From: Candidatus Poribacteria bacterium
GTDB lineage: Bacteria > Poribacteria > WGA-4E > WGA-3G
DNA: 64,000 nt
Direction of reading: 5' to 3'
Assembly (NCBI GenBank): GCA_026706025.1
Contig: JAPOZO010000085.1
Span: 1-64,000, forward strand
The notes below the pieces were generated by a model, which was not told where the DNA came from, made no database searches, and was given only the letters and a program-made list of their open reading frames with translations. Positions 4,550-63,861 of the stretch are shown here, one piece after another. A program made the position numbers and the translations under genes. The first letter of the stretch is position 1; each line of letters starts with the position of its first letter.

Positions 4550-5617
4550 ATGAGAAAGAGAAAAAGAAAGAGCGAACGAAAATTTTTGCTTTCGGACAAA
4601 TCATTTCTGCGCATGTTGAGTCCGGAACAACGGGAACAGTTAGATTCCAAACATAAGAGTGTCTATCCACCGATCTTATTAGTCGAGAACGCTCAACATG
4701 GGTTGGGCAAACCGAGTGCCTTACTTAACTTTAAGAACACTATAAGGGTGCCTCATTGGGTAGAACGGGCAAAAATGGAGTTGCTAATAGGGCCACCGCC
4801 TCGTTACTACAAAGTCGGAGCAAAAGTGCCGATCAAGTCAATCTATAACGCATCAGGTGAAGCGCGCGAAAAGATAGAAAAAGGTGCTGTTGGTATTGTG
4901 AACCAAATGGAAGCGGAAGCTGACAGGCTCAAAAAACACGTGCCCATATTACCGGGCAGAGACGTAAAACTCACGGCATTGACTGAAAACCACAAAAGTA
5001 TCTCTGACAAAGATCTTTTACGGCTGTTTAATCAAGCCTTGAGAGAGTACAGTCATAATCACCCACAAAGTCCATGCTCTCCTGTTCCAATCGGAATAGG
5101 TAATACAAAAATTCCTGAAATCAGGAAATTCCTAGATGAGTGCAAGGCGATTTGCAAGGTTGATACTCTGGGCAAAGCTTACAAATGGATTGCACAAATA
5201 TTCTATGAAGATTCTGAGTCCGTGTTAGACTTTTTATGCAATGGAGGTATCATACCAGTTTCAGCAGATGAACAATCTGAAATTTTCAACAGATTTAGAA
5301 GTGAAGGTGAACCACCGATCAGTAGTTTTGCTCCATACGCACTAATTACCATGAAGTTGTATCATACAATGTTCTTGTACCTTACTGAAAATCGAGAAAA
5401 TTCCTCGCCTCGAGAGGTGCTCAGGGATTTCGATTACTTGTTTTATGCTCTGGATGATTATGTTATTTTTGTATCTGCCGAGAAATGGCACAAGAAATGT
5501 ATAGAAGAGATCCCGCTCCTTAAAAATGTCCGTAAAAATTTCGTATTCATTACTCACAAAAACAAAAGTGAAGAGGAATACAAAAAGGGCTTGAAATCCA
5601 TTGGTATTAAAATGTAG
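4550..5617 (+). CDS. Uncharacterised protein with PIN-like C-terminus
   Basis: A 355-residue protein starting with a Lys/Arg-rich tail. The centre is helical. The C-terminus (about residues 285-350) has the pattern DFDYLFYALDDYVIFVSAEK followed by a KW/H residue pair, resembling the acidic end of a family of PIN-like proteins (D-x-x-YL-x-YL-x-x-C-x-x-F-x-S-x-D-K). The gene at 15196 has a comparable C-terminus. A metal-dependent nuclease role is possible but not shown. A 99-bp gap separates it from the Ymh gene. Confidence 0.55.
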   Translation: MRKRKRKSERKFLLSDKSFLRMLSPEQREQLDSKHKSVYPPILLVENAQHGLGKPSALLNFKNTIRVPHWVERAKMELLIGPPPRYYKVGAKVPIKSIYNASGEAREKIEKGAVGIVNQMEAEADRLKKHVPILPGRDVKLTALTENHKSISDKDLLRLFNQALREYSHNHPQSPCSPVPIGIGNTKIPEIRKFLDECKAICKVDTLGKAYKWIAQIFYEDSESVLDFLCNGGIIPVSADEQSEIFNRFRSEGEPPISSFAPYALITMKLYHTMFLYLTENRENSSPREVLRDFDYLFYALDDYVIFVSAEKWHKKCIEEIPLLKNVRKNFVFITHKNKSEEEYKKGLKSIGIKM

Positions 5618-5941: not shown

Positions 5942-7423
5942 GTGAGTTCGCATTATAAAACGTTGGGACACATTGACGTAGATGCTTTCCTACGAAACAG
6001 AAATGGAGCGATTGATTTGAACCTCATTGATGCAGGTAGAATACGCCCTATTTCTCAGCAGTATGAGTGGGAAACGGATACATCAGCTGGACACGTGTTG
6101 TTGCGTCCTGTTCTGAGCAAGCGGAGTCGGGCAAAGGTTGGAGATGTGCTTATTCCACTGTTCATTGATTTAACGCCTGAGACTATCGCTTTTATGGGGG
6201 CATACGATGGGGACGGGAACAAAACCAATAAAATCGGTTTTGCCCAAAATAATCCACAGCTGCAGGACTTTGTAAGTAGAGGGCTTCAAGTCTTATTTGG
6301 TGACTCTTTCGACTCCCAAGTGACTATATTGGAAGATGAAAAGTATTTCCAGGGCGATAATATTATTGATGAGATGAACCTTATCAAGCAGGAATGGATG
6401 GATCAAGGGAGGCCGGAAGACGAAATTAAAGAAAGGGAGCTGCAAGAAGAAATCTTAGGGCTAAAATACAACTCTCAATATGCTGGAAGCCCGCCTGATG
6501 AACCGATGAAGTTCGTAATCAGTGAAAAGAAGGGAGCACTTGCTCCTGGCGGGAGTGCTTATGAAATTATCCGTACCCAACTGAAATCTGAACACTTTCT
6601 CCCGTTCCTGCTTGCGATTATAAAGGCGTGTGTTGACTCTATTCTGAAGGATTCTATCGAGTCAGATGAAATTAAATGGTTGGGACCGCCGCTCACGCAT
6701 CATCAACAATACTTTAATCTGAAGCCTTATGTCGAAAGTGGAATGTGCTGTTATGTGACAAAAGGCGGACAGAAAAGACAATATGACATTTGTGCAGAAC
6801 AAGGAGAACTCTTTAAACCCGATATTGACCGTGGTGATTTATTATGGATTCAAAAGCCAAACGGTAGGCGATTTGCAGTACCTGTTGAGTTACCTTTATC
6901 ACCAATTCTCTGCTTAATGTTAGGATATTATTTGGCTGAGGGATCGTCCAGTAAATCTGCGTATTTTACCTTTAGAAATCAATATGAGCAAAGTATCTCA
7001 CTCGGCTTCAACTCCTCTGAAGAAGACACACTTCGTGTTTTTTTTGATGGACTGGATGTTTTGTTTCCAAACAGTCGGGCGGATATCGTAACGGGATGGC
7101 TCGTAAAAATCGGGGGTAAATATTTTCCTGAGTCCATCACAGTTGCAGAAAAACTTGCTATTCCCTTGACACGACGCGGTCCAAAGGGACAGGGAGTAGC
7201 CGGAAGTGTTGAATTTACAAAAGCAGTCCGAGATTGGGCATTAGATCAATTTCCGCTGATGAAGGCGTGGGCTGATAAATTCTTGCATATTGAGTTTACT
7301 GGGGCAGGAGTTCCAAGGGTTGACATTAGATGTGCGAGTTTCCCTGCTGAATTTCTGGCAGCAGTGATATGTGATTCCCTGTTCCAATCAGAGAGTATTG
7401 AGGAGTTCATTCGTGACCGGTAA
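5942..7423 (+). CDS. Protein with two LAGLIDADG-like motifs (putative nuclease of a methyltransferase system)
   Basis: A 493-residue protein, first gene of a four-gene operon. Residues 84-92 read FMGAYDGDG and residues 326-334 read MLGYYLAEG. Both fit the LAGLIDADG dodecapeptide (L-x-G-x-Y-x-G/A-D/E-G), each followed by a beta-rich segment and a helix with an aromatic VLFG/VLFP-type core, as in homing endonucleases and intein Dod domains. Each motif keeps its acidic residue, so a monomeric two-lobed nuclease is plausible. The 230-residue spacing exceeds that of classic monomeric enzymes and includes a helical insert (about 135-260). There is no intein splice junction and no intron around it. 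GTG start with AAGGAG 8 bases upstream. Inference: cleavage component of the modification system downstream. Confidence 0.6.
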   Translation: MSSHYKTLGHIDVDAFLRNRNGAIDLNLIDAGRIRPISQQYEWETDTSAGHVLLRPVLSKRSRAKVGDVLIPLFIDLTPETIAFMGAYDGDGNKTNKIGFAQNNPQLQDFVSRGLQVLFGDSFDSQVTILEDEKYFQGDNIIDEMNLIKQEWMDQGRPEDEIKERELQEEILGLKYNSQYAGSPPDEPMKFVISEKKGALAPGGSAYEIIRTQLKSEHFLPFLLAIIKACVDSILKDSIESDEIKWLGPPLTHHQQYFNLKPYVESGMCCYVTKGGQKRQYDICAEQGELFKPDIDRGDLLWIQKPNGRRFAVPVELPLSPILCLMLGYYLAEGSSSKSAYFTFRNQYEQSISLGFNSSEEDTLRVFFDGLDVLFPNSRADIVTGWLVKIGGKYFPESITVAEKLAIPLTRRGPKGQGVAGSVEFTKAVRDWALDQFPLMKAWADKFLHIEFTGAGVPRVDIRCASFPAEFLAAVICDSLFQSESIEEFIRDR

Positions 7424-13133: not shown

Positions 13134-14084
13134 GTGGCAAAGCACCATTATGTTTCAAAATTTTACTATAAGGAATTCACTTTTAACCCAGAACGATCGT
13201 TAGTCTATTCAATGGACAATGAGAGCAAAATCAGTAATAGACCGAAATCAATAAGGAAAATCAGTTTTGAGCAGGACTACAATACACCTGAGCAAGAGCA
13301 AGAGCAAAGTCAACTTGAAAGAGAATATGCAGAAATATTAAGAGAATTTATCAAAGCACCCAACCCAAACGACTTAGAACTTTCTCGTGACTTTATAGAA
13401 TTTGTTTGTTTCCTTGTGGGTAATAATCCTTACATCAGAGGTAAACTTGATGAGGGGTTCGGTAATATGGACCTGCAGATAAAGGACGCTCCCGGTGATC
13501 ACTATATCTCAATGCCTAGAGGACATAAAGGCAAGTTTGATTGGAGTCTCGCCTTTGCTGATGCTGTTTTTGAGGAATTTCTTAATTGGAGATTTGTTCG
13601 CCTTGAGACAAACGGCTATAAAGTTTTTATTACTAGCGATAATCCAGTGAGCATAATAAATCCCCAAGATGTAAGGATTCCCATAATGGCTGACGTTCTA
13701 TGGAGAGATCCAAAAGTTGTGAATTTTGGTAATGAAGATATACCGGTTTCAGATGGCTGGATGTCCAGGAAAATGGAAGTACAAATGACACTTAAAAGTG
13801 TTGATTTTGGACGGGATGTTATAATGATTTTCCCTGTCACTCCAAGTGTATGTTTACTCGGTTTCTCAAACAATACAAGGCATCTGAGATACATGAATCG
13901 CACGCCACGCGACAACAACGATATTTTAGCATTTATGAACCTTATAACGTTCAGTCAATGCAACAAAGTTGTTTATTCACACTCTAAGGAATTGCTGAAA
14001 AGCACCAAGATCAACTTGCCCAAATTCCTAAATCACTGCCAACGTCATGGATATCCGCCCTCTTTCGAGGCAGGTATAGCTTAA
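13134..14084 (+). CDS. DUF4238 family protein
   Basis: A 316-residue protein that opens with HHYVSKFYYKEF (residues 4-15), the hallmark of the DUF4238 family (HHYVPxFYLRxF). Later conserved features are an ITSDNPV segment (about residue 165) and IFPVTPSVCLLG (about 230). Members are widespread in bacteria and phage-defence neighbourhoods, and a nuclease role has been suggested but is not settled. GTG start with GGAGG just upstream. Single-gene unit. Confidence 0.75.
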   Translation: MAKHHYVSKFYYKEFTFNPERSLVYSMDNESKISNRPKSIRKISFEQDYNTPEQEQEQSQLEREYAEILREFIKAPNPNDLELSRDFIEFVCFLVGNNPYIRGKLDEGFGNMDLQIKDAPGDHYISMPRGHKGKFDWSLAFADAVFEEFLNWRFVRLETNGYKVFITSDNPVSIINPQDVRIPIMADVLWRDPKVVNFGNEDIPVSDGWMSRKMEVQMTLKSVDFGRDVIMIFPVTPSVCLLGFSNNTRHLRYMNRTPRDNNDILAFMNLITFSQCNKVVYSHSKELLKSTKINLPKFLNHCQRHGYPPSFEAGIA

Positions 14085-14171
14085 AAACTTCAGAAAGTCT
14101 ATTGCGACAGTGTAAAGGAGTTGTAAGACAGGAAAGAGGACGACATCATAAATAGGAGGCGAGATAATGCA

Positions 14172-14726
14172 ATGAAAAGCACACACTCCTTTGACAACGC
14201 CGAAATCCACCGAGTGTCCAAGTGTTTCACCGGCACATTTGAAGTGCGTAATCGCGGGCTTTGGTTTCTACTTGTTATTGTTGGGTTGTTTATTAACGGG
14301 TGTGGCGGAGACACAGACACCGCAGACACAGGACCCGCTATGTTTGTAGAGGTGAAACCGCCGCGCGTCCGTGCCGAACCGAATTCGGATAGGTGGGACG
14401 CAGAGTTTGATGTGGTCTTTAATGGATCGCCTGTTGATCTGAGCGCGGAATTTGAGATAAAAACGATACTCAAAGAGAGTTGGGACGCGGATTGGGAACA
14501 AACAGGAAATATTGTAACCCTTCACTTTGAGTTTAAACTCGTGTCAATTGAACAGAGAGTTGGTCCTACAGAACCCCCTGATAGAATATTAATCCTTCCA
14601 CGTGAAGATCAAAAGCAATCTGTTGAGGTGACGCTCACGTGGTCGGACGGACGCAAAATTTTCACTGTTGAGGCGTACCCACCTGAAAGTCTTTTTGTTG
14701 GACGTTCAGATATTCTTTCATTTTAG
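14172..14726 (+). CDS. Lipoprotein with an integrase-derived N-terminus
   Basis: A 184-residue product. Residues 1-31 (MKSTHSFDNAEIHRVSKCFT onward) resemble the start of the integrase at 34506-35198 (MKGTRPLTNAEIRKVRDAFS), and the DNA is alignable from the ATG for about 100 bp. Then comes a hydrophobic run (WFLLVIVGLF) and a lipobox ending NGC, after which a beta-rich exported domain continues (residues 50-184). The gene therefore looks like a lipoprotein whose translation start was captured from a decayed integrase 5' end; a short signal sequence starting nearer the hydrophobic run is an alternative. Function unknown. Confidence 0.55.
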   Translation: MKSTHSFDNAEIHRVSKCFTGTFEVRNRGLWFLLVIVGLFINGCGGDTDTADTGPAMFVEVKPPRVRAEPNSDRWDAEFDVVFNGSPVDLSAEFEIKTILKESWDADWEQTGNIVTLHFEFKLVSIEQRVGPTEPPDRILILPREDQKQSVEVTLTWSDGRKIFTVEAYPPESLFVGRSDILSF

Positions 14727-14750
14727 AGGCATCATCGCAAGGATTTGTTT

Positions 14751-15113
14751 ATGAAATGGTATCAAATGCGTTGGGCGCAAAAGTATTGGGGAAAAGAAGC
14801 CAGAGAACGCTACCGTCGGTATCTCCAATCCGATGCGTGGAAAACAAAGCGAAAAGCCGTTTTAAAAGCCGCTGGATTCCGATGCCGTCGCTGTGGCGCA
14901 CCCGCAACAGAAGTACACCACGAGACCTACAAGCGAATCTACAACGAAAGGATGTCAGATTTAACAGCCCTATGTAGCAAATGCCATGAGGCAGCCCATA
15001 CTCGGACACCCAAACCCCGAAAGAAAAGCACGTCTGGTGAAAGGTACGGAACCCGAAAACCTAACCAGCGCAGATTTTATCGAAAACGCAAGGCAAAGAC
15101 AAGAAGTCGGTAA
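14751..15113 (+). CDS. HNH endonuclease
   Basis: A 120-residue protein. YRRYLQSDAWKTKRKAVLKA (about 19-38) precedes the zinc/HNH core: CRRCG (about 44-48), VHHETY (about 54-59, the HH catalytic pair) and CSKCH (about 74-78). The C-terminus is very basic. This is the typical compact HNH fold of phage, plasmid and McrA-like nucleases. ATG at 14751 follows AAGGA. It lies between two decayed integrase 5' ends (14172 and 15117). Confidence 0.85.
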   Translation: MKWYQMRWAQKYWGKEARERYRRYLQSDAWKTKRKAVLKAAGFRCRRCGAPATEVHHETYKRIYNERMSDLTALCSKCHEAAHTRTPKPRKKSTSGERYGTRKPNQRRFYRKRKAKTRSR

Positions 15114-15116
15114 ACC

Positions 15117-15193
15117 ATGAAAAACATAAATTCCCTCAACAACGGACGAGAACAGACAAGTATCCGCAACTTTCACCGGAACTATTGAGAGAA
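15117..15193 (+). pseudogene. Decayed 5' end of a tyrosine integrase gene
   Basis: From ATG 15117 the DNA aligns with the start of the lipoprotein gene at 14172 and, through it, with the integrase at 35198: ATGAAAA, TCC, ACAACG, AGT, TTCACCGG and TTGA are shared in register. Frame-shifted reading gives MKNINSLNN, then VSATFTGTIERK, matching the integrase pattern AFSGTYAQRNRG. It ends where the next gene begins (ATG 15196). Confidence 0.55.
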
Positions 15194-15195
15194 AA

Positions 15196-16224
15196 ATGAT
15201 ACACGTTGAATATAATAAGAAAAACGGTTTTCCACACGACAGAGAACTCATCCTATTTGATAGATGTGCTTTTCAAAATGTGCATAGGGATGTGCTTGCC
15301 GAGATTAACAAAAAATATAACATCCTTTGCCCTCAAGTTTTTGTAATGGAATGCATTGCTCCAGACAATACGGATAAGAAAGATGTAGAATCATTTGAGA
15401 AAGATAAAAAGTCACTGCGTGAAAAATTGGAATTAATAGAAAATCCGATAGTTCTCACCGGAGAGACGCACAGATATTTTATGATTGACGCACTTAATGG
15501 GACGCACTGTCCAAGTATTCTCACGTCAGAAGAAATTGCGGCGAACTGCATCACATCTACACCTATAACAATGGAACGTATGGCACCGGAAAATCTTATA
15601 TCGTATTATGAGCCTCGAATTGAGGGCTTCAAAAGCCTTATAAAAAGCATCACTGAAAGGTGCGATAAAGCAAAAGGAATGCTTACTCCCAATAAGATAA
15701 ATTCATACGTCCAACAAATTCTCCAACCGATGTTTGAAGCGTTAGATATGACTGTATCCACGCAAGACATAAAAGCGGGACTTAAGCGAGATAAAAAAAC
15801 TTATGTGAAACAAACACCCAACTACGCCGCTGAAAAGACAAGACAAGAAATGGAAAATGAACCGATAGATAGAAGTATCGTGATGCTTGAAGCAGTATTA
15901 TATCTTACTGGGGGACATGCCAATCGGCTACGTCGCGAACTTGCAGACCGGAAAAGACTTACAATGGAAAATTATCCACATCTGGCATATCCTATCTACA
16001 TCTATTACTTATCCAACTATATGATCTATGCCAGACAAATCAATGCAGAACACTTGGATAAATCATATTTAAAGGACTTCAGATACCTACACTACTTAAA
16101 TTTTTGTGATATGTTCATCGTAGGAGAAAAATCTACACCGCACATAGTTAATTCAATACCATACGACAATATTAGGAAAACGCCTGTCATCACTATTCCA
16201 GAGTTGAAAAATAGACTCACTTAA
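15196..16224 (+). CDS. PIN-like putative nuclease
   Basis: A 342-residue protein. The N-terminus (ELILFDRCAFQN, residues about 14-25) fits the first acidic strand of a PIN-type nuclease, followed by ILCPQVFVMECIAPD with a conserved Glu. The C-terminus FRYLHYLNFCDMFIVGEK matches the D-x-x-YL-x-x-C-D-x-F pattern of the last acidic motif. The middle (residues 90-280) is helical. A role as an RNase in a toxin or defence context is inferred. It shares the C-terminal pattern with the protein at 4550. The start is placed at the ATG directly after the integrase fragment. Confidence 0.55.
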   Translation: MIHVEYNKKNGFPHDRELILFDRCAFQNVHRDVLAEINKKYNILCPQVFVMECIAPDNTDKKDVESFEKDKKSLREKLELIENPIVLTGETHRYFMIDALNGTHCPSILTSEEIAANCITSTPITMERMAPENLISYYEPRIEGFKSLIKSITERCDKAKGMLTPNKINSYVQQILQPMFEALDMTVSTQDIKAGLKRDKKTYVKQTPNYAAEKTRQEMENEPIDRSIVMLEAVLYLTGGHANRLRRELADRKRLTMENYPHLAYPIYIYYLSNYMIYARQINAEHLDKSYLKDFRYLHYLNFCDMFIVGEKSTPHIVNSIPYDNIRKTPVITIPELKNRLT

Positions 16225-16449: not shown

Positions 16450-17280
16450 ATGACAAATTTGAGAGATGTCTTACCAAAACTTGAGGACTTGGAGCCCTCA
16501 GAAGATTGTATACTATGGCGATATACGGACATTCCATCTTTAGTTGAAATTTTGACTTTTGAATATATACCTCTTGTTAGGGTCTCCCTTTTTAGTGATA
16601 TAACAGAAGGGGCAATTCTGAAATCTGCTTTATCTAAACTTCCTAAAGCAACAAATATTGGAAAAGACTATGTATTTGATGTATACAAAAATACTGCTTT
16701 TGCTTCGTGTTGGTGCGGAAATCAGGAAGAACTCGCCCCTATGTGGGATAGATTTTCACCAAGAGATGGTGTCGCCATTAAAACGAATGCTAAACGTCTT
16801 TTGGATTGGTTAACTCCCCGACGTGGATATAAGATAAAATATGTTAAGTATATCAATGAAAATCCTGATGATATTTTATCTGAACTTACTGAAATAGATT
16901 TTGAAGAATTTGAGAAAGTTAGACGAGACTTATTTTTTTATAAAATGTCTGACTTTTCGGATGAGAGAGAAGTAAGAATCCTTAACTGTAGGGCTCTCGT
17001 AAATTTTTCAGGAATGGTAAGTAGATTAACCGGATTTAATCTACACCAGTTTAAGGAAATGATGGATACCGATGTTATACCGAAAGAAATTATTGAACGT
17101 GCTGATATACGTTATATGAATGAACTTATAACTGAAATAGTCATTTCCCCGGCGGCACGCCCTGGGATTCGCGAAATTGTCCAAGAATTAATTAAATCCG
17201 TGAATTCGCTGAGAAGACTTGAGGGAAAATCGCCACTTGGGATTCGAGTAGAAGAATCTCGTCGTAAAACGTGGTTTTAG
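16450..17280 (+). CDS. DUF2971 family protein
   Basis: A 276-residue protein with the DUF2971 signature: CILWRYTDIPSLVEIL (about residues 20-35), LFSDITEG (about 47-54), AFASCWCGNQEELAPMWDRF (about 82-101), GVAIKT and a C-terminal FYKMSDFSDEREVRI. The family occurs frequently in defence islands and abortive-infection contexts; its biochemistry is not established. No good Shine-Dalgarno is visible before the ATG. Confidence 0.75.
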   Translation: MTNLRDVLPKLEDLEPSEDCILWRYTDIPSLVEILTFEYIPLVRVSLFSDITEGAILKSALSKLPKATNIGKDYVFDVYKNTAFASCWCGNQEELAPMWDRFSPRDGVAIKTNAKRLLDWLTPRRGYKIKYVKYINENPDDILSELTEIDFEEFEKVRRDLFFYKMSDFSDEREVRILNCRALVNFSGMVSRLTGFNLHQFKEMMDTDVIPKEIIERADIRYMNELITEIVISPAARPGIREIVQELIKSVNSLRRLEGKSPLGIRVEESRRKTWF

Positions 17281-28687: not shown

Positions 28688-28798
28688 ATGAAAAACGAAA
28701 TGGCTATAGTCCCCTCGACCGAAACGACTGCGGAACTAACACCAAAGCCGACCGTTTGGCTGGTTGAAAAGTCCTTAAGGAGATATTATGACAGATAG
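28688..28798 (+). pseudogene. Decayed 5' end of a tyrosine integrase, now a leader ORF
   Basis: A 36-codon frame (MKNEMAIVPSTETTAELTPK onward, through LVEKSL) matches the N-terminus of the intact integrase at 30383 (SIVPSTEITQELIPEPT, LVEKSF). The DNA similarity extends upstream of the ATG (AGAGGTT-GCATG in both). After GTCCTT the similarity ends and the Shine-Dalgarno/start of the TIR-like gene begins; the leader stop (28796-28798) overlaps that gene start at 28788, which could couple translation. Confidence 0.65.
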
Positions 28799-29600
28799 CA
28801 AAAATCCCAAGTTACGTGTAAGAAAAGCAGAAGCCTCTGGAAAGATACGCAGACGGATTGAGGAAGGCAAGAAACTGCTTAAGACTGAAATATCTTCAGA
28901 AGAAGATTTTGATAACTTAAAAAGAGAAACATGGAAATGGACCGATTACAACAAAACACTGTTTGGCACTTTATTTGACGAATCTCCGCTACCAGATTCG
29001 CATGGGGAACCAGTTTTCTACATAGTAGGTAGTCCAAGTTTGGATCAACAAATAACCGATCATGAGAATGGTATATCTCGTTGGATTAATGATTTGGAAA
29101 GCATTTGTGGACAGTTGGAATTATACGAGGAATTGCTAAACAACACTCAACAGACTACAAATAATGACACCGTGAATAACGAAAATAAGAAAATCTTTAT
29201 CGGGCATGGTCATTCACTTGTATGGCGAGAACTTAAGGATTTTATAGAGGGTACATTAGGGCTTCCTTATGAAGAATTCAATCGTGTTTCAACAGCTGGT
29301 CAGTTTACCGGCAACCGCCTTAAAGAAATGTTAGACGAATCCCGTATGGCATTCTTGATCATGACAGGCGAAGACGAACAAGCCGACGGCTCACTACATG
29401 CTCGTGAGAATGTAATTCACGAAGCAGGCTTGTTTCAAGGTAGGCTCGGTTTTGAAAGGGCAATCATTTTACTGGAAGAAGGTTGTCAGGATTTTAGTAA
29501 CATTCATGGACTTATACATATCCCATTTCCAAAAGGGAAAATAGGGGCAGCTTTCGAGGAAATCCGCAGAGTGTTGCAACGAGAATCTATATTAGAGTAA
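28788..29600 (+). CDS. Predicted nucleotide-binding TIR-like (Cap12-type) effector
   Basis: A 270-residue protein. The C-terminal domain (about 130-265) matches the TIR-like domain of predicted nucleotide-binding/CD-NTase-associated protein 12 type: KIFIGHGHSLVWRELKDFIE, STAGQFTGNRLKEML, AFLIMTGEDEQ, HARENVIHEAGLFQGRLGF and LIHIPFPKGKI. The N-terminal 125 residues are helical and charged. In CBASS/Pycsar systems such TIR domains degrade NAD on sensing a nucleotide signal; no cyclase gene is adjacent here, so the trigger is unknown. AAGGAG precedes the ATG. Confidence 0.8.
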   Translation: MTDSKNPKLRVRKAEASGKIRRRIEEGKKLLKTEISSEEDFDNLKRETWKWTDYNKTLFGTLFDESPLPDSHGEPVFYIVGSPSLDQQITDHENGISRWINDLESICGQLELYEELLNNTQQTTNNDTVNNENKKIFIGHGHSLVWRELKDFIEGTLGLPYEEFNRVSTAGQFTGNRLKEMLDESRMAFLIMTGEDEQADGSLHARENVIHEAGLFQGRLGFERAIILLEEGCQDFSNIHGLIHIPFPKGKIGAAFEEIRRVLQRESILE

Positions 29601-29615
29601 CACAAGGAGGCTAAC

Positions 29616-30446
29616 ATGGCAAAAACTCTCTCTCTTGAAAATATAGCAAAAATTCTAAACGATCAACAAGAAGTAGTTGGCATTATTGACGACTATATTC
29701 AAATCAGGCAATTAGACGCTCATATTAAGTTGAATTACTATGATAACTATGCTGATATGGTTATGCAACATTTGTTTGTGAATATCAGGAATAGCTATCA
29801 GGACGGTATATTCATATCTCAAGGGTTAATAGACAATACCGCTTATATGTCTACGGCATTAGCACACGCACAACGAACCGCACAGGAATTTCTAATTGAT
29901 CTTGCTTATATCATGCGGGACAGAAAAAATAAAAAAGGTCATGAATATCTCCGCTACCTAAAGTTTGTGGTTGATAAAGAGGACATGGAATTGAATAAAA
30001 AAAATCTTCCTGAAGATATATACAATAAAATGTTCGACTCAAATTTAAAGCCAAAATCTCCAAGTCAATGGTCGCATACCGACCCGAAAGCCAAATTTAA
30101 ACAGGGGTTGGAATTTTACGAAATAGAACCCCCTGAATTTGCTGACTATCGCCATGACTTTCATTCACTCTTAAGCTCTTACGCACATGGAAATTTCAAT
30201 ACCACTTCTATGTTGAAACGAACCCCGGAAGAAAACCTCTTTAAACTGCGCGCAGATTTAACATTATCTATAGGTTTTTTTAACGTATTATTAGAATCAG
30301 CATTAAAATGCTACGTTCAATTGTATTTAGCGCGACGTAGTGACTACAAGAAATTAATGGACTCTATTTCACAGAGGTTGGCATGGAAAACAAAAGACTG
30401 GGCGGAAACCCGCCGGAAACTTCGATTGTCCCCTCAACCGAAATAA
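29616..30446 (+). CDS. Helical DUF5677-like protein, partner of the TIR gene
   Basis: A 276-residue protein made mostly of helices, with a conserved FLIDLAYIMRD and a late SSYAHGNFN motif resembling DUF5677-type proteins. It starts 15 bp after the TIR-like gene (AAGGAGG) and is surely co-transcribed. Its last 21 codons (ending LRLSPQPK) overlap the integrase 5' end in a different frame, so the native C-terminus may have been replaced by integrase DNA. Possibly the sensor or regulator of the TIR effector. Confidence 0.6.
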   Translation: MAKTLSLENIAKILNDQQEVVGIIDDYIQIRQLDAHIKLNYYDNYADMVMQHLFVNIRNSYQDGIFISQGLIDNTAYMSTALAHAQRTAQEFLIDLAYIMRDRKNKKGHEYLRYLKFVVDKEDMELNKKNLPEDIYNKMFDSNLKPKSPSQWSHTDPKAKFKQGLEFYEIEPPEFADYRHDFHSLLSSYAHGNFNTTSMLKRTPEENLFKLRADLTLSIGFFNVLLESALKCYVQLYLARRSDYKKLMDSISQRLAWKTKDWAETRRKLRLSPQPK

Positions 30447-31363
30447 CACAGGAACTCATACCGGAGCCGACAGCAGGGCTTGTGGAGAAGTCCTTTGCCG
30501 AAAACACGCTACGCAACCGCCGGCAGGCTCTGAAACAATTTGACGAGTGGCTCCGCGGTCGCCCGATCGCAGACGGGCTGCTCGCCCAGTATATCACAGA
30601 CCTGTTTGACGAAGGCAAAGCACCAGGGACAATCTCAATCGCTGTTTCCGCAGTAAAGTGGCTATTGAAGTATCGGAATAACGGAAAGCCGGTCGAACTT
30701 CCTATCACCGCTGCGACACTGGCGGGTATCCGTCGAGAGGGTCGCGACCGAGGACGGGGACAGCGAAACGGCTTAACATGGCGTGAAGTCGAAAAAATCT
30801 GTGCAGTTCAAGAGGCAGACGGCACGCTCCGCGGTACTCGCAACTCCGCTATCCTGCGGGTCATGTCCGACGGGCTGCTCCGTATTTCCGAAGTGGTGGA
30901 ACTTCGTATAGACGACCTTGAGGACAACACGCTCCGGGTTCGCCATTCCAAGACAGATCAGGAAGGACAGGGTGAGTATCTCTATCTGTGTACCGACACC
31001 CGCCAGATGGTCGGTAAATGGTTGGAACGGTCGGGGCTGATGGAAGGCTATCTATTTCGGCGTATGACCGCGCGCGGTGATAACCTCTACGTCAACAAGA
31101 ACACCGGTGAGCCATTCGCGCTCACCGCAGACGGTGTGCGAAAGATTATCAAGCAAAGTGCAGCCAAGGTGGGACTGACAGAGAAGGTATCAGGACACTC
31201 ACTGCGGATTGGAACAACTGTGTCTCTGGCAGAGTCGGGAGCGTCTCTTGTGGACATTCAGACTGCGGGGCGGTGGAAAGATCCGGGGATGCCAGCACAC
31301 TATACCCGCGCCCAGTTTGTCGAGCGTGGCGCAATTGCAAGATTTAAGGACGGAAAGCGATAA
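30383..31363 (+). CDS. Tyrosine recombinase/integrase (int1)
   Basis: A 326-residue recombinase. The N-terminal SAM-like core-binding domain spans about 35-115 (AENTLRNRRQALKQFDEWLR). The catalytic domain has LLRISEV (Arg at about 166), HSLRIG (HxxR, about 272-275), AGRWKDPGMPAHY (Trp in place of the second His, nucleophile Tyr at about 307). It ends with GAIARFKDGKR, shared with the integrase at 62938. It overlaps the upstream gene by 64 bp. Higher GC than the TIR genes before it. A partial 5' copy lies at 28688. Confidence 0.9.
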   Translation: MENKRLGGNPPETSIVPSTEITQELIPEPTAGLVEKSFAENTLRNRRQALKQFDEWLRGRPIADGLLAQYITDLFDEGKAPGTISIAVSAVKWLLKYRNNGKPVELPITAATLAGIRREGRDRGRGQRNGLTWREVEKICAVQEADGTLRGTRNSAILRVMSDGLLRISEVVELRIDDLEDNTLRVRHSKTDQEGQGEYLYLCTDTRQMVGKWLERSGLMEGYLFRRMTARGDNLYVNKNTGEPFALTADGVRKIIKQSAAKVGLTEKVSGHSLRIGTTVSLAESGASLVDIQTAGRWKDPGMPAHYTRAQFVERGAIARFKDGKR

Positions 31364-34505: not shown

Positions 34506-35198
34506 TCATTTCTCCATGCGTAAGCGCACCTCGTAGCCGAATTCAATAACTTTGGCGACAAGGGTCTCCGGTTCAAAGTCGTCCAACGGATCGGTCGGGT
34601 TCTCTTCGGCAGTCAATGACATCGCTTCGACCGCGTCCTGTGCGGAAACATAGTTGATGCCGATATAAGCCTGCGTCGTAATCACATTTTTGTGCCCGAG
34701 TAACTCACGGACAACATAAATGTCGTTACATTGCTGATAGAGCCGTTGCGCGAAAGTTTTCCGCAGGGTATGTGTCGCCAATTTGCCGGTCAGTCCAGCT
34801 TTGGCAAACACGTCATTGAGAATCTTATGAACCGCTTGGCGTTTAATCGCCGTATTGCCTTTCTGTGAAGGGAATAACGGTACATCGGGATGCACGACAC
34901 CAAAGTAGGCGCGGTGCCACGCGATGATTTCTTCAATCGCTGTGCGTCCATCAGAGTTGACAGGGATCGTCCGTGCGGTCTCGCCACCTTTGACGATATT
35001 CTTGTCAAACTGGAAGTCGGTGACCGGCTGCTCATTTTGCCAAACATCGCCGACAGTGAGTGCAAGTAATTCACTGACACGTCCGCCGATGGACACGCCG
35101 AGCATAAACAAGCCGCGATTGCGTTGGGCATAAGTGCCACTGAAAGCGTCGCGGACTTTTCGGATCTCTGCGTTGGTGAGGGGTCTTGTTCCTTTCAT
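34506..35198 (-). CDS. Tyrosine recombinase, catalytic domain only (int2)
   Basis: A 230-residue protein containing only the catalytic half of a tyrosine recombinase: GGRVSELLAL (Arg at about 40), THTLRKTFAQRL (HxxR, about 143-146), LLGHKNVITTQAYI (His at about 167, Tyr at about 176). The usual 90-residue core-binding domain is absent, as in some single-domain invertible-element recombinases. Its first 33 codons have decayed homologues at 14172 and 15117. No obvious Shine-Dalgarno near ATG 35198. Could act on resolution of plasmid multimers or on cassettes. Confidence 0.85.
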   Translation of the reverse strand: MKGTRPLTNAEIRKVRDAFSGTYAQRNRGLFMLGVSIGGRVSELLALTVGDVWQNEQPVTDFQFDKNIVKGGETARTIPVNSDGRTAIEEIIAWHRAYFGVVHPDVPLFPSQKGNTAIKRQAVHKILNDVFAKAGLTGKLATHTLRKTFAQRLYQQCNDIYVVRELLGHKNVITTQAYIGINYVSAQDAVEAMSLTAEENPTDPLDDFEPETLVAKVIEFGYEVRLRMEK

Positions 35199-62937: not shown

Positions 62938-63861
62938 TTATCGCTTGCCATCCTTGAATCTTGCGATTGCGCCGCGTTCAGCGAGTTCTGCTTTTGCGTA
63001 GTGTGCTGGCATTTGTGAGGATTTCCAGCGTCCTGCGACTTGCATATCGACGACGGTCGCCCCGGCTTGCGCGAGGGAGACAGCAGATCCGACGCGAAGG
63101 GAATGCCCGGAGATAAAACCTTCTACACCGGCATCAGCAGCCCGCTTTTTGATAATGCGGCGTGCGGAGTGGGCGGTGAGCCGATCCGACTGGATGTGGT
63201 CACCGCGGCGAATGTGTCGGAAAATAGCACCGTCTGTAATGCCAGATCGTTCGCGGTACCGATCTAACACGTTTCGTGTTGCGTCACAGACATAGAGACT
63301 TTCGCCGGTGCCCTCCTGATCAGTTTTTGACGATCGGAGTGCGAGCGTCTTTTCTTTGAGGTCCCCAACGTTGACCGTAACAACTTCAGATATCCGCAAC
63401 AGACAATCGCTCATGAGGCGTATCATTGCTGCATCCCGTAAGCCTGCAATCGTGCTTTCGGTTTCCGCATAGACACAGATCCTTTCCACGTCCTGCCAAA
63501 TTAGACCATTGACCTGTCCGCGTCCTCTATCCTTGCCTTCTCTACGGATACCTGCCAACGTTGCGTGTGTAATAGGAAAGTTGATGATTTCTTGCCATTG
63601 ATGTTTGAGTTGCCACTTGACAGCAGCAACGGCTTGTCCGATTGTCGCGGGGGTTTTCCCTGTATTGTGTAATTCAGTGATGTATTCGGCTAACAGCGCA
63701 TCGGATAGAGTTCGACTTGATAGCCATGTCTCTAAATTGTGTAGCGCGCGCTGATAGGCTTTCAGCGTGTTTTCCGAGATGGAAACTTTGATTAGGGATC
63801 CGATTTCTTCGGGGAGTTGTAAGATTGTGGTGTTAGGATCAGCGTTGACGATCACACTCAT
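62938..63861 (-). CDS. Tyrosine recombinase/integrase (int3)
   Basis: A 307-residue recombinase with the same layout as int1: SAM-like core-binding domain (ISENTLKAYQRALHNLETWL), catalytic LLRISEV, HSLRVG, VAGRWKSSQMPAHY and the shared tail GAIARFKDGKR. About half of the residues are identical to int1 over the catalytic domain by eye. ATG 63861. It lies near the direct repeats at 62307 and 62536. Probably a plasmid integrase or resolvase. Confidence 0.9.
   Translation of the reverse strand: MSVIVNADPNTTILQLPEEIGSLIKVSISENTLKAYQRALHNLETWLSSRTLSDALLAEYITELHNTGKTPATIGQAVAAVKWQLKHQWQEIINFPITHATLAGIRREGKDRGRGQVNGLIWQDVERICVYAETESTIAGLRDAAMIRLMSDCLLRISEVVTVNVGDLKEKTLALRSSKTDQEGTGESLYVCDATRNVLDRYRERSGITDGAIFRHIRRGDHIQSDRLTAHSARRIIKKRAADAGVEGFISGHSLRVGSAVSLAQAGATVVDMQVAGRWKSSQMPAHYAKAELAERGAIARFKDGKR

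Follow-up and report, generated by a model that had tools for sequence, protein, structure and literature searches.

Why should the start of a tyrosine recombinase gene, detached from the rest of that gene, lie next to cargo genes to which it is unrelated? The question is raised by two short segments of the window, by which we mean the whole 64,000-nt stretch of DNA that was analyzed (G000:C85:1-64000, from a 6.27-Mb Candidatus Poribacteria MAG in 103 contigs); a gene for a Rep3 replication initiator lies at the window start (144-1553), for which reason contig C85 may be a plasmid. A sequence-only reading had proposed that the gene starts at 14172 and 15117 are copies of the 5′ end of the integrase gene int2, that they bracket a lipoprotein gene and an HNH gene, and that they reflect a general mechanism of cassette capture. 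The features concerned are listed below, with the matches of the two segments (stubs 1 and 2) to R1, a model made from sequence alone out of the 5′ ends of 23 full-length ints, the window copies being left out:

13134-14084, + strand: DUF4238 gene (PF14022, E=2e-18), with its stop codon 87 nt upstream of stub 1
14172-14266, + strand: stub 1, int2-family 5′ end from the ATG at 14172 (R1 E=4.2e-14 in the window, model positions 1-95)
14172-14726, + strand: lipoprotein-like ORF of 184 aa, the first ~30 codons of which are stub 1
14745-15113, + strand: HNH endonuclease gene (PF01844, E=2.4e-4)
15117-15188, + strand: stub 2, int2-family 5′ end from the ATG at 15117 (R1 E=0.0016 in the window, model positions 1-71)
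15196-16224, + strand: cargo gene of 342 aa, no family match
34506-35198, − strand: int2, full-length tyrosine recombinase of 230 aa (PF00589, E=3e-22, 79.5 bits against a cut-off of 27.1)

Recombinase Gene Starts Beside Cargo Genes in the Window

A DNA search with positions 14100-15300 retrieved the 5′ end of the C64 int from its exact ATG (74% over 89 nt, E=2.4e-8). In direct alignment, stub 1 shares 68 identical positions with this gene over 90-95 nt, as against 56/95 with the window int2, and none of 2,000 shuffles did as well; the ORF starts of the window, the copy and int2 excepted, score at most 27 against the C64 int, when the start at 14172 scores 66. As judged by sequence, the nearest donor of the 14172 copy is a C64-type int, not the window int2. 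The two starts also align with each other as proposed (50/74, equaled by 1 of 2,000 shuffles), and the proposed alignment with the int2 start at 35198 holds for 15117 (51/71, 0/2,000 shuffles) but is weak for 14172 when made directly (72/2,000), the latter being connected with int2 by way of the C64 int and of the family profile. Stub 2, which likewise aligns with the C64 int better than any of 2,000 shuffles, contains a 1-nt frameshift, begins 3 nt past the HNH stop codon and forms a leader ORF that stops 7 nt ahead of the next ATG; as it reaches only E=0.15 in a genome-wide R1 search, the case for it is made mainly by its position and the pairwise tests. A shared start-codon context as the sole cause is ruled out by the shuffles and by the extent of the homology, which goes well beyond that context and covers, in both copies, 70-95 nt from the ATG. 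On these sequence grounds, remnants of recombinase front ends do really lie between unrelated cargo genes, in the window and in its relatives.

With regard to the cargo, both bracketing stubs are real, but stub 1 does not stand ahead of the lipoprotein ORF: it forms the in-frame beginning of that ORF. The fusion of stub and lipoprotein is found again in G005 (locus L082, 64% aa identity), where another gene precedes it; this gene in turn recurs in G044 (L078, 72% at the DNA level) up to the stub ATG, with other DNA after it. A lipoprotein homologue in G017 (L173) has no int2 stub and directly follows a 3′-end stub of another integrase family, int1b. DNA homologous to the HNH gene starts elsewhere at ~14740, behind other genes (a coiled-coil gene at two loci), and DNA homologous to 15196-16224 starts in two genomes at 15192, without a stub. 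The label "PIN-like" given to this last gene finds no support in Pfam, NCBIfam, or PADLOC, although three homologues conserve D/E residues that are in keeping with it. Further on, the cargo genes at 16450-17280 and 28788-29600 match the candidate defense families PDC-S31 and PDC-S35 / TIR effector; part of the cargo is defense-like (TIR, HNH, candidate defense families).

Distribution of the Remnants and Cargo Shuffling in the Genus

Further int2-like 5′ fragments do exist: an R1 search of 38 congener genomes yielded some 25-30 partial copies plus intact ints. Nearly all partial copies start at model position 1 or 2, and most end between +34 and ~+140; their right ends are variable, many of them away from any core. 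In an alignment of 47 copies, information is 0.1 bit at −1 and jumps to 1.1-1.7 bits once the ATG is reached; upstream there is only a weak Shine-Dalgarno-like signal at −14 to −8. Because intact mobile ints likewise have unrelated flanks on either side, this sharp edge alone does not place a crossover; past the stop codon, the mobile set (22 int genes) shows no conserved right end of an int2 element. A block of ~84 bp upstream of some stubs proved to be the 3′ end of a common coiled-coil gene.

Among 48 copies, stubs and intact ints taken together, 30 have a same-strand ORF of at least 100 aa that ends −6 to 100 nt upstream; for random positions the share is 5.9%. Five copies share bases with the stop codon of the cargo, in the form (N)TGA. 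The genes themselves are shuffled: the same cargo and stub occur with different neighbors in L078/L082, window/L082, L093/L103, L089+L092/L097, and L098/L099, and in about five pairs the stub has stayed with the cargo that precedes it. At one locus, the only present/absent pair seen, a 77-nt block holding a stub in G052 and G013 is exactly absent from G048 and G044; it has AA at its edges and no inverted ends such as an IS or MITE would have. At the same locus, G000:C89 lacks a whole cassette of ~690 bp, and no core half-sites are found there. This cassette (L089, 5000-6700) has a promoter-like stretch that resembles the one behind it, the two flanking it as a direct repeat of ~40 bp.

Two repeats of other kinds were met as well: ahead of the C64 int region (L113, 5150-5300), 22-bp units of the ATGAACGTTTATGGGGAGAAAC type stand in tandem, and near an int2 array (L079, 15399-16643) there is a regular, CRISPR-array-like repeat (translated FQSRNRGSFGFK / FNLVIEVLLVSS).

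An Inverted Repeat Within the int2-Family Gene

The catalytic domain of int2 begins almost at the start of the protein. The genome holds four full-length paralogues, and a Candidatus Poribacteria MAG contains a close relative. Past the conserved catalytic motifs, at codons ~200-210, int2-family genes carry a co-varying inverted repeat of 13-6-13 bp. In a conserved clade of ints, synonymous constraint is strongest where this repeat lies (codons ~197-214, 0.09 vs. a mean of ~0.42), an example of the repeat being GAACTTAACGT-AAGTACGAAA-ACGTTAAGTTC; in mobile ints, the arms found at this place are different ones (GAACGTGACAGAA-ccgacc-TTTTGTCACGTTC; GAACTGCACATAA-ctacaa-TTTTGGGCAGTTC). Arm matches of at least 11/13 occur there in 18 of 46 genes, compared with 1% after synonymous shuffling, and the covariation of the arms (0.408 vs. 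0.149 ± 0.024 when shuffled) is gone when the register is slid. Tyrosine recombinases act on cores made of 11-13 bp arms around a crossover region of 6-8 bp. The geometry of the in-gene repeat resembles that of such a core, and we regard it as a candidate core. A clear repeat is absent from the window int2, from L012, and from two IMG/VR relatives.

Several ints are broken at the center of this repeat, as right halves at L077:5428, L079:~9650, L080:~4703, and L149:~255, and, for the second L109 int, as a left half; the breakpoints of L081 and L091 are tentative, and the L087 int was dropped from the set, a degenerate right arm being present. Since the tail queries began near the core, the clustering of breakpoints there is partly favored by the search. 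In L077, the order is a stub, a right arm with int tail (5429-5560), two cargo genes, and a stub at 6980. Family-like 13-6-13 repeats were found only inside int genes, none beside the cargo of the arrays; next to the stubs of the window, neither a core repeat nor a fragment of the tail turned up, and neither a circular form nor a clean empty core site was found.

Among side observations on these genes, the near-perfect inverted repeat of the conserved clade (L004, L014-L032, and others, in most genomes of the genus) spans int nt 598-629 and could be the dif site of the chromosome. In the IMG/VR contigs L211 (1443-2189) and L212 (4001-4750), the int2 relative lies behind a ParA-like gene, and in L212 an APRT-like gene follows it, an arrangement that resembles the border of a plasmid-like element that has integrated (gene names by sequence reading).

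How the Remnants May Have Formed

The reading that we favor, with a probability of about 45%, is that the int2-family gene holds its own att core and that the window stubs are junction integrases whose spare copies decayed to 5′ stubs. The recombination core carried by the recombinase gene would be the inverted repeat that closely follows the catalytic domain. A circular cassette would open at this core and integrate as right arm plus int tail, then cargo, then int start to codon ~200 plus left arm. Because the gene contains its own core, int genes are proposed to form at cassette junctions: tandem integrations would rebuild one at each joint, in the orientation of the cargo and directly past the cargo stop codon. 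Spare ints at joints would afterwards be reduced, by loss of the middle or of the 3′ part, to 5′ stubs of ~35-140 nt that adjoin or are fused to the following cargo gene. The stubs, their position, the shuffling of genes, the co-varying repeat, and the breaks at it are observed; the role of the repeat as att core, the existence of circular cassettes, and the origin of the window stubs by decay at junctions are what we infer. The internal deletions that join stubs to an int tail also count in favor of the model. Against it count the many stubs that end away from any core, the window stubs with neither core repeat nor tail fragment beside them, the family members that lack a clear repeat, the 3′ stubs of int1b, and the failure to find circles or, at the empty site, core half-sites.

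The strongest alternative, although unlikely, is plain decay, in which the mobile operons of a plasmid or defense region that rearranges fast simply end with an int gene and random deletions leave the stubs behind, no in-gene site being involved. It accords with the variable right ends, with the frameshifts of several stubs, and with their relaxed codon constraint, second-position changes amounting to 8.0% in stubs against 0.9% in intact ints. Yet the fragments are biased toward one end, with 5′:internal:3′ counts of 6:2:2 for the int2 family and 5:7:16 for the int1 and int1b families (small hand counts, the int2 tail being hard to detect), very short stubs are in excess, and breakpoints fall at the repeat. 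End bias and breakpoints together weaken purely random decay, within the limits of small samples and of tail queries that favor the core region.

Somewhat less probable still is that the 5′ end itself is a cis-acting, attC-like site at the 3′ end of cargo, recognized in trans by full-length ints. The constant left boundary at the ATG, the travel of stubs with upstream cargo, and some nine right ends at +34 to +46 would fit such a site. But +34 is also about the detection limit, the sharp boundary is equally expected if the ORF alone is conserved, the 5′ end of intact genes has no clear synonymous constraint (0.48 vs. 0.58 elsewhere in the mobile clade), and no inverted repeat is found at the int 5′ end; the relaxation of stubs relative to intact ints, for its part, fits decay and weakens the idea of a site. 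Of the cassette-capture mechanism initially proposed, what stands is that stubs occur genus-wide, at junctions behind same-strand cargo that is shuffled; capture by the 5′ end itself is not borne out, given the lack of special synonymous constraint and the relaxed stubs, in which no particular constraint at the DNA level is seen.

Finally, it is very improbable that deletions joining an int start to cargo were selected for expression, the start providing either a leader ORF with coupled translation or the ribosome-binding site together with the start codon, for if in-frame fusions (14172, L082, L078:920, L106), leaders that stop 0-14 nt before the next ATG (15117, L077:6980, L077:8250, L095), and the Shine-Dalgarno-like signal speak for it, many stubs have no closely following same-strand gene, homologues of following genes occur without a stub, and the internal deletions that join a stub to an int tail (L077, L080, L091, L094, L102, L078) are left unexplained.

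Relation to Known Systems

Among the closest known systems are the archaeal "suicidal" (SSV-type) integrases, whose att site lies inside the integrase gene and travels with it, integrated copies being split or chimeric (PMC8371274). A candidate for such a site in the int2-family gene is the co-varying 13-6-13 repeat, with the breakpoints at it. SSV-type integrases carry Phage_integr_3 (PF16795), when int2 has PF00589 only, and they are cut ahead of the catalytic domain, when the int2-family repeat lies behind the catalytic motifs, so that the catalytic part would stay whole. It is a possible, if doubtful, extension that we are dealing with a bacterial counterpart of these self-targeting integrases serving as a cassette platform, where insertion would keep an active recombinase and swap its tail, and the recombinase gene itself would be the joint. 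An att site inside a bacterial integrase gene would then be at odds with a review that holds self-disrupting recombinases to be exclusively archaeal (PMC8371274).

As in integrons, arrays of mostly small, same-orientation cargo have a recombinase-related repeat at their joints; unlike in integrons, this repeat is a piece of the int gene and not a known attC, full ints lie inside the array or at its downstream end, and int2 scores 45.4 bits against the IntI model TIGR02249 (NCBIfam), below the cut-off of 265. Module shuffling also recalls the dif modules (pdif) of Acinetobacter Rep_3 plasmids, in which gene modules are shuffled between short tyrosine-recombinase sites (PMC6449649, PMC13141974), and the window has a Rep3 gene too; the joints of dif modules are nevertheless XerC/XerD (pdif) sites, when those described here are fragments of a dedicated recombinase gene. 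With FimB/FimE, int2 shares the format of a catalytic-domain-only tyrosine recombinase of ~200 aa, but its matches to PRK09871 and PRK09870 (NCBIfam) are weak and far below the family cut-off. A literature search, covering mostly papers outside subscription, found no description of int-gene stubs at cassette joints in Poribacteria or elsewhere. If confirmed, the model would describe, for an uncultured phylum of sponge symbionts, a platform for gene cassettes that differs from both integrons and dif modules, and cassette boundaries could be read from integrase stubs.

Other Integrase Families in the Window

The same architecture had been claimed for a different integrase family at 28.7-30.5 kb. 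The features of int1 and int1b in the window are the following:

28690-28777, + strand: int1 5′ stub (tblastn E=5e-4, residues 12-38), shortly after a TIR_2 gene
30383-31363, + strand: int1, tyrosine recombinase of 326 aa (PF00589, E=1.6e-17)
62938-63861, − strand: int1b, tyrosine recombinase of 307 aa, of a family that leaves 3′-end stubs in relatives

The int1 stub at 28690 is real but short, and 5′ copies are not universal, int1b leaving mainly 3′ ends. Neither an inverted-repeat core nor synonymous constraint was found in int1 or int1b, and the 3′ stubs of int1b must have another cause since int1b has no such repeat. In the 3′ fragments of both families, the right edge lies at the last codons and the left edge is variable. 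Stubs from the 3′ end of the int1b family, 60-230 nt long, are numerous in the genus (L145-L164), and some lie directly before cargo, as a mirror image of int2.
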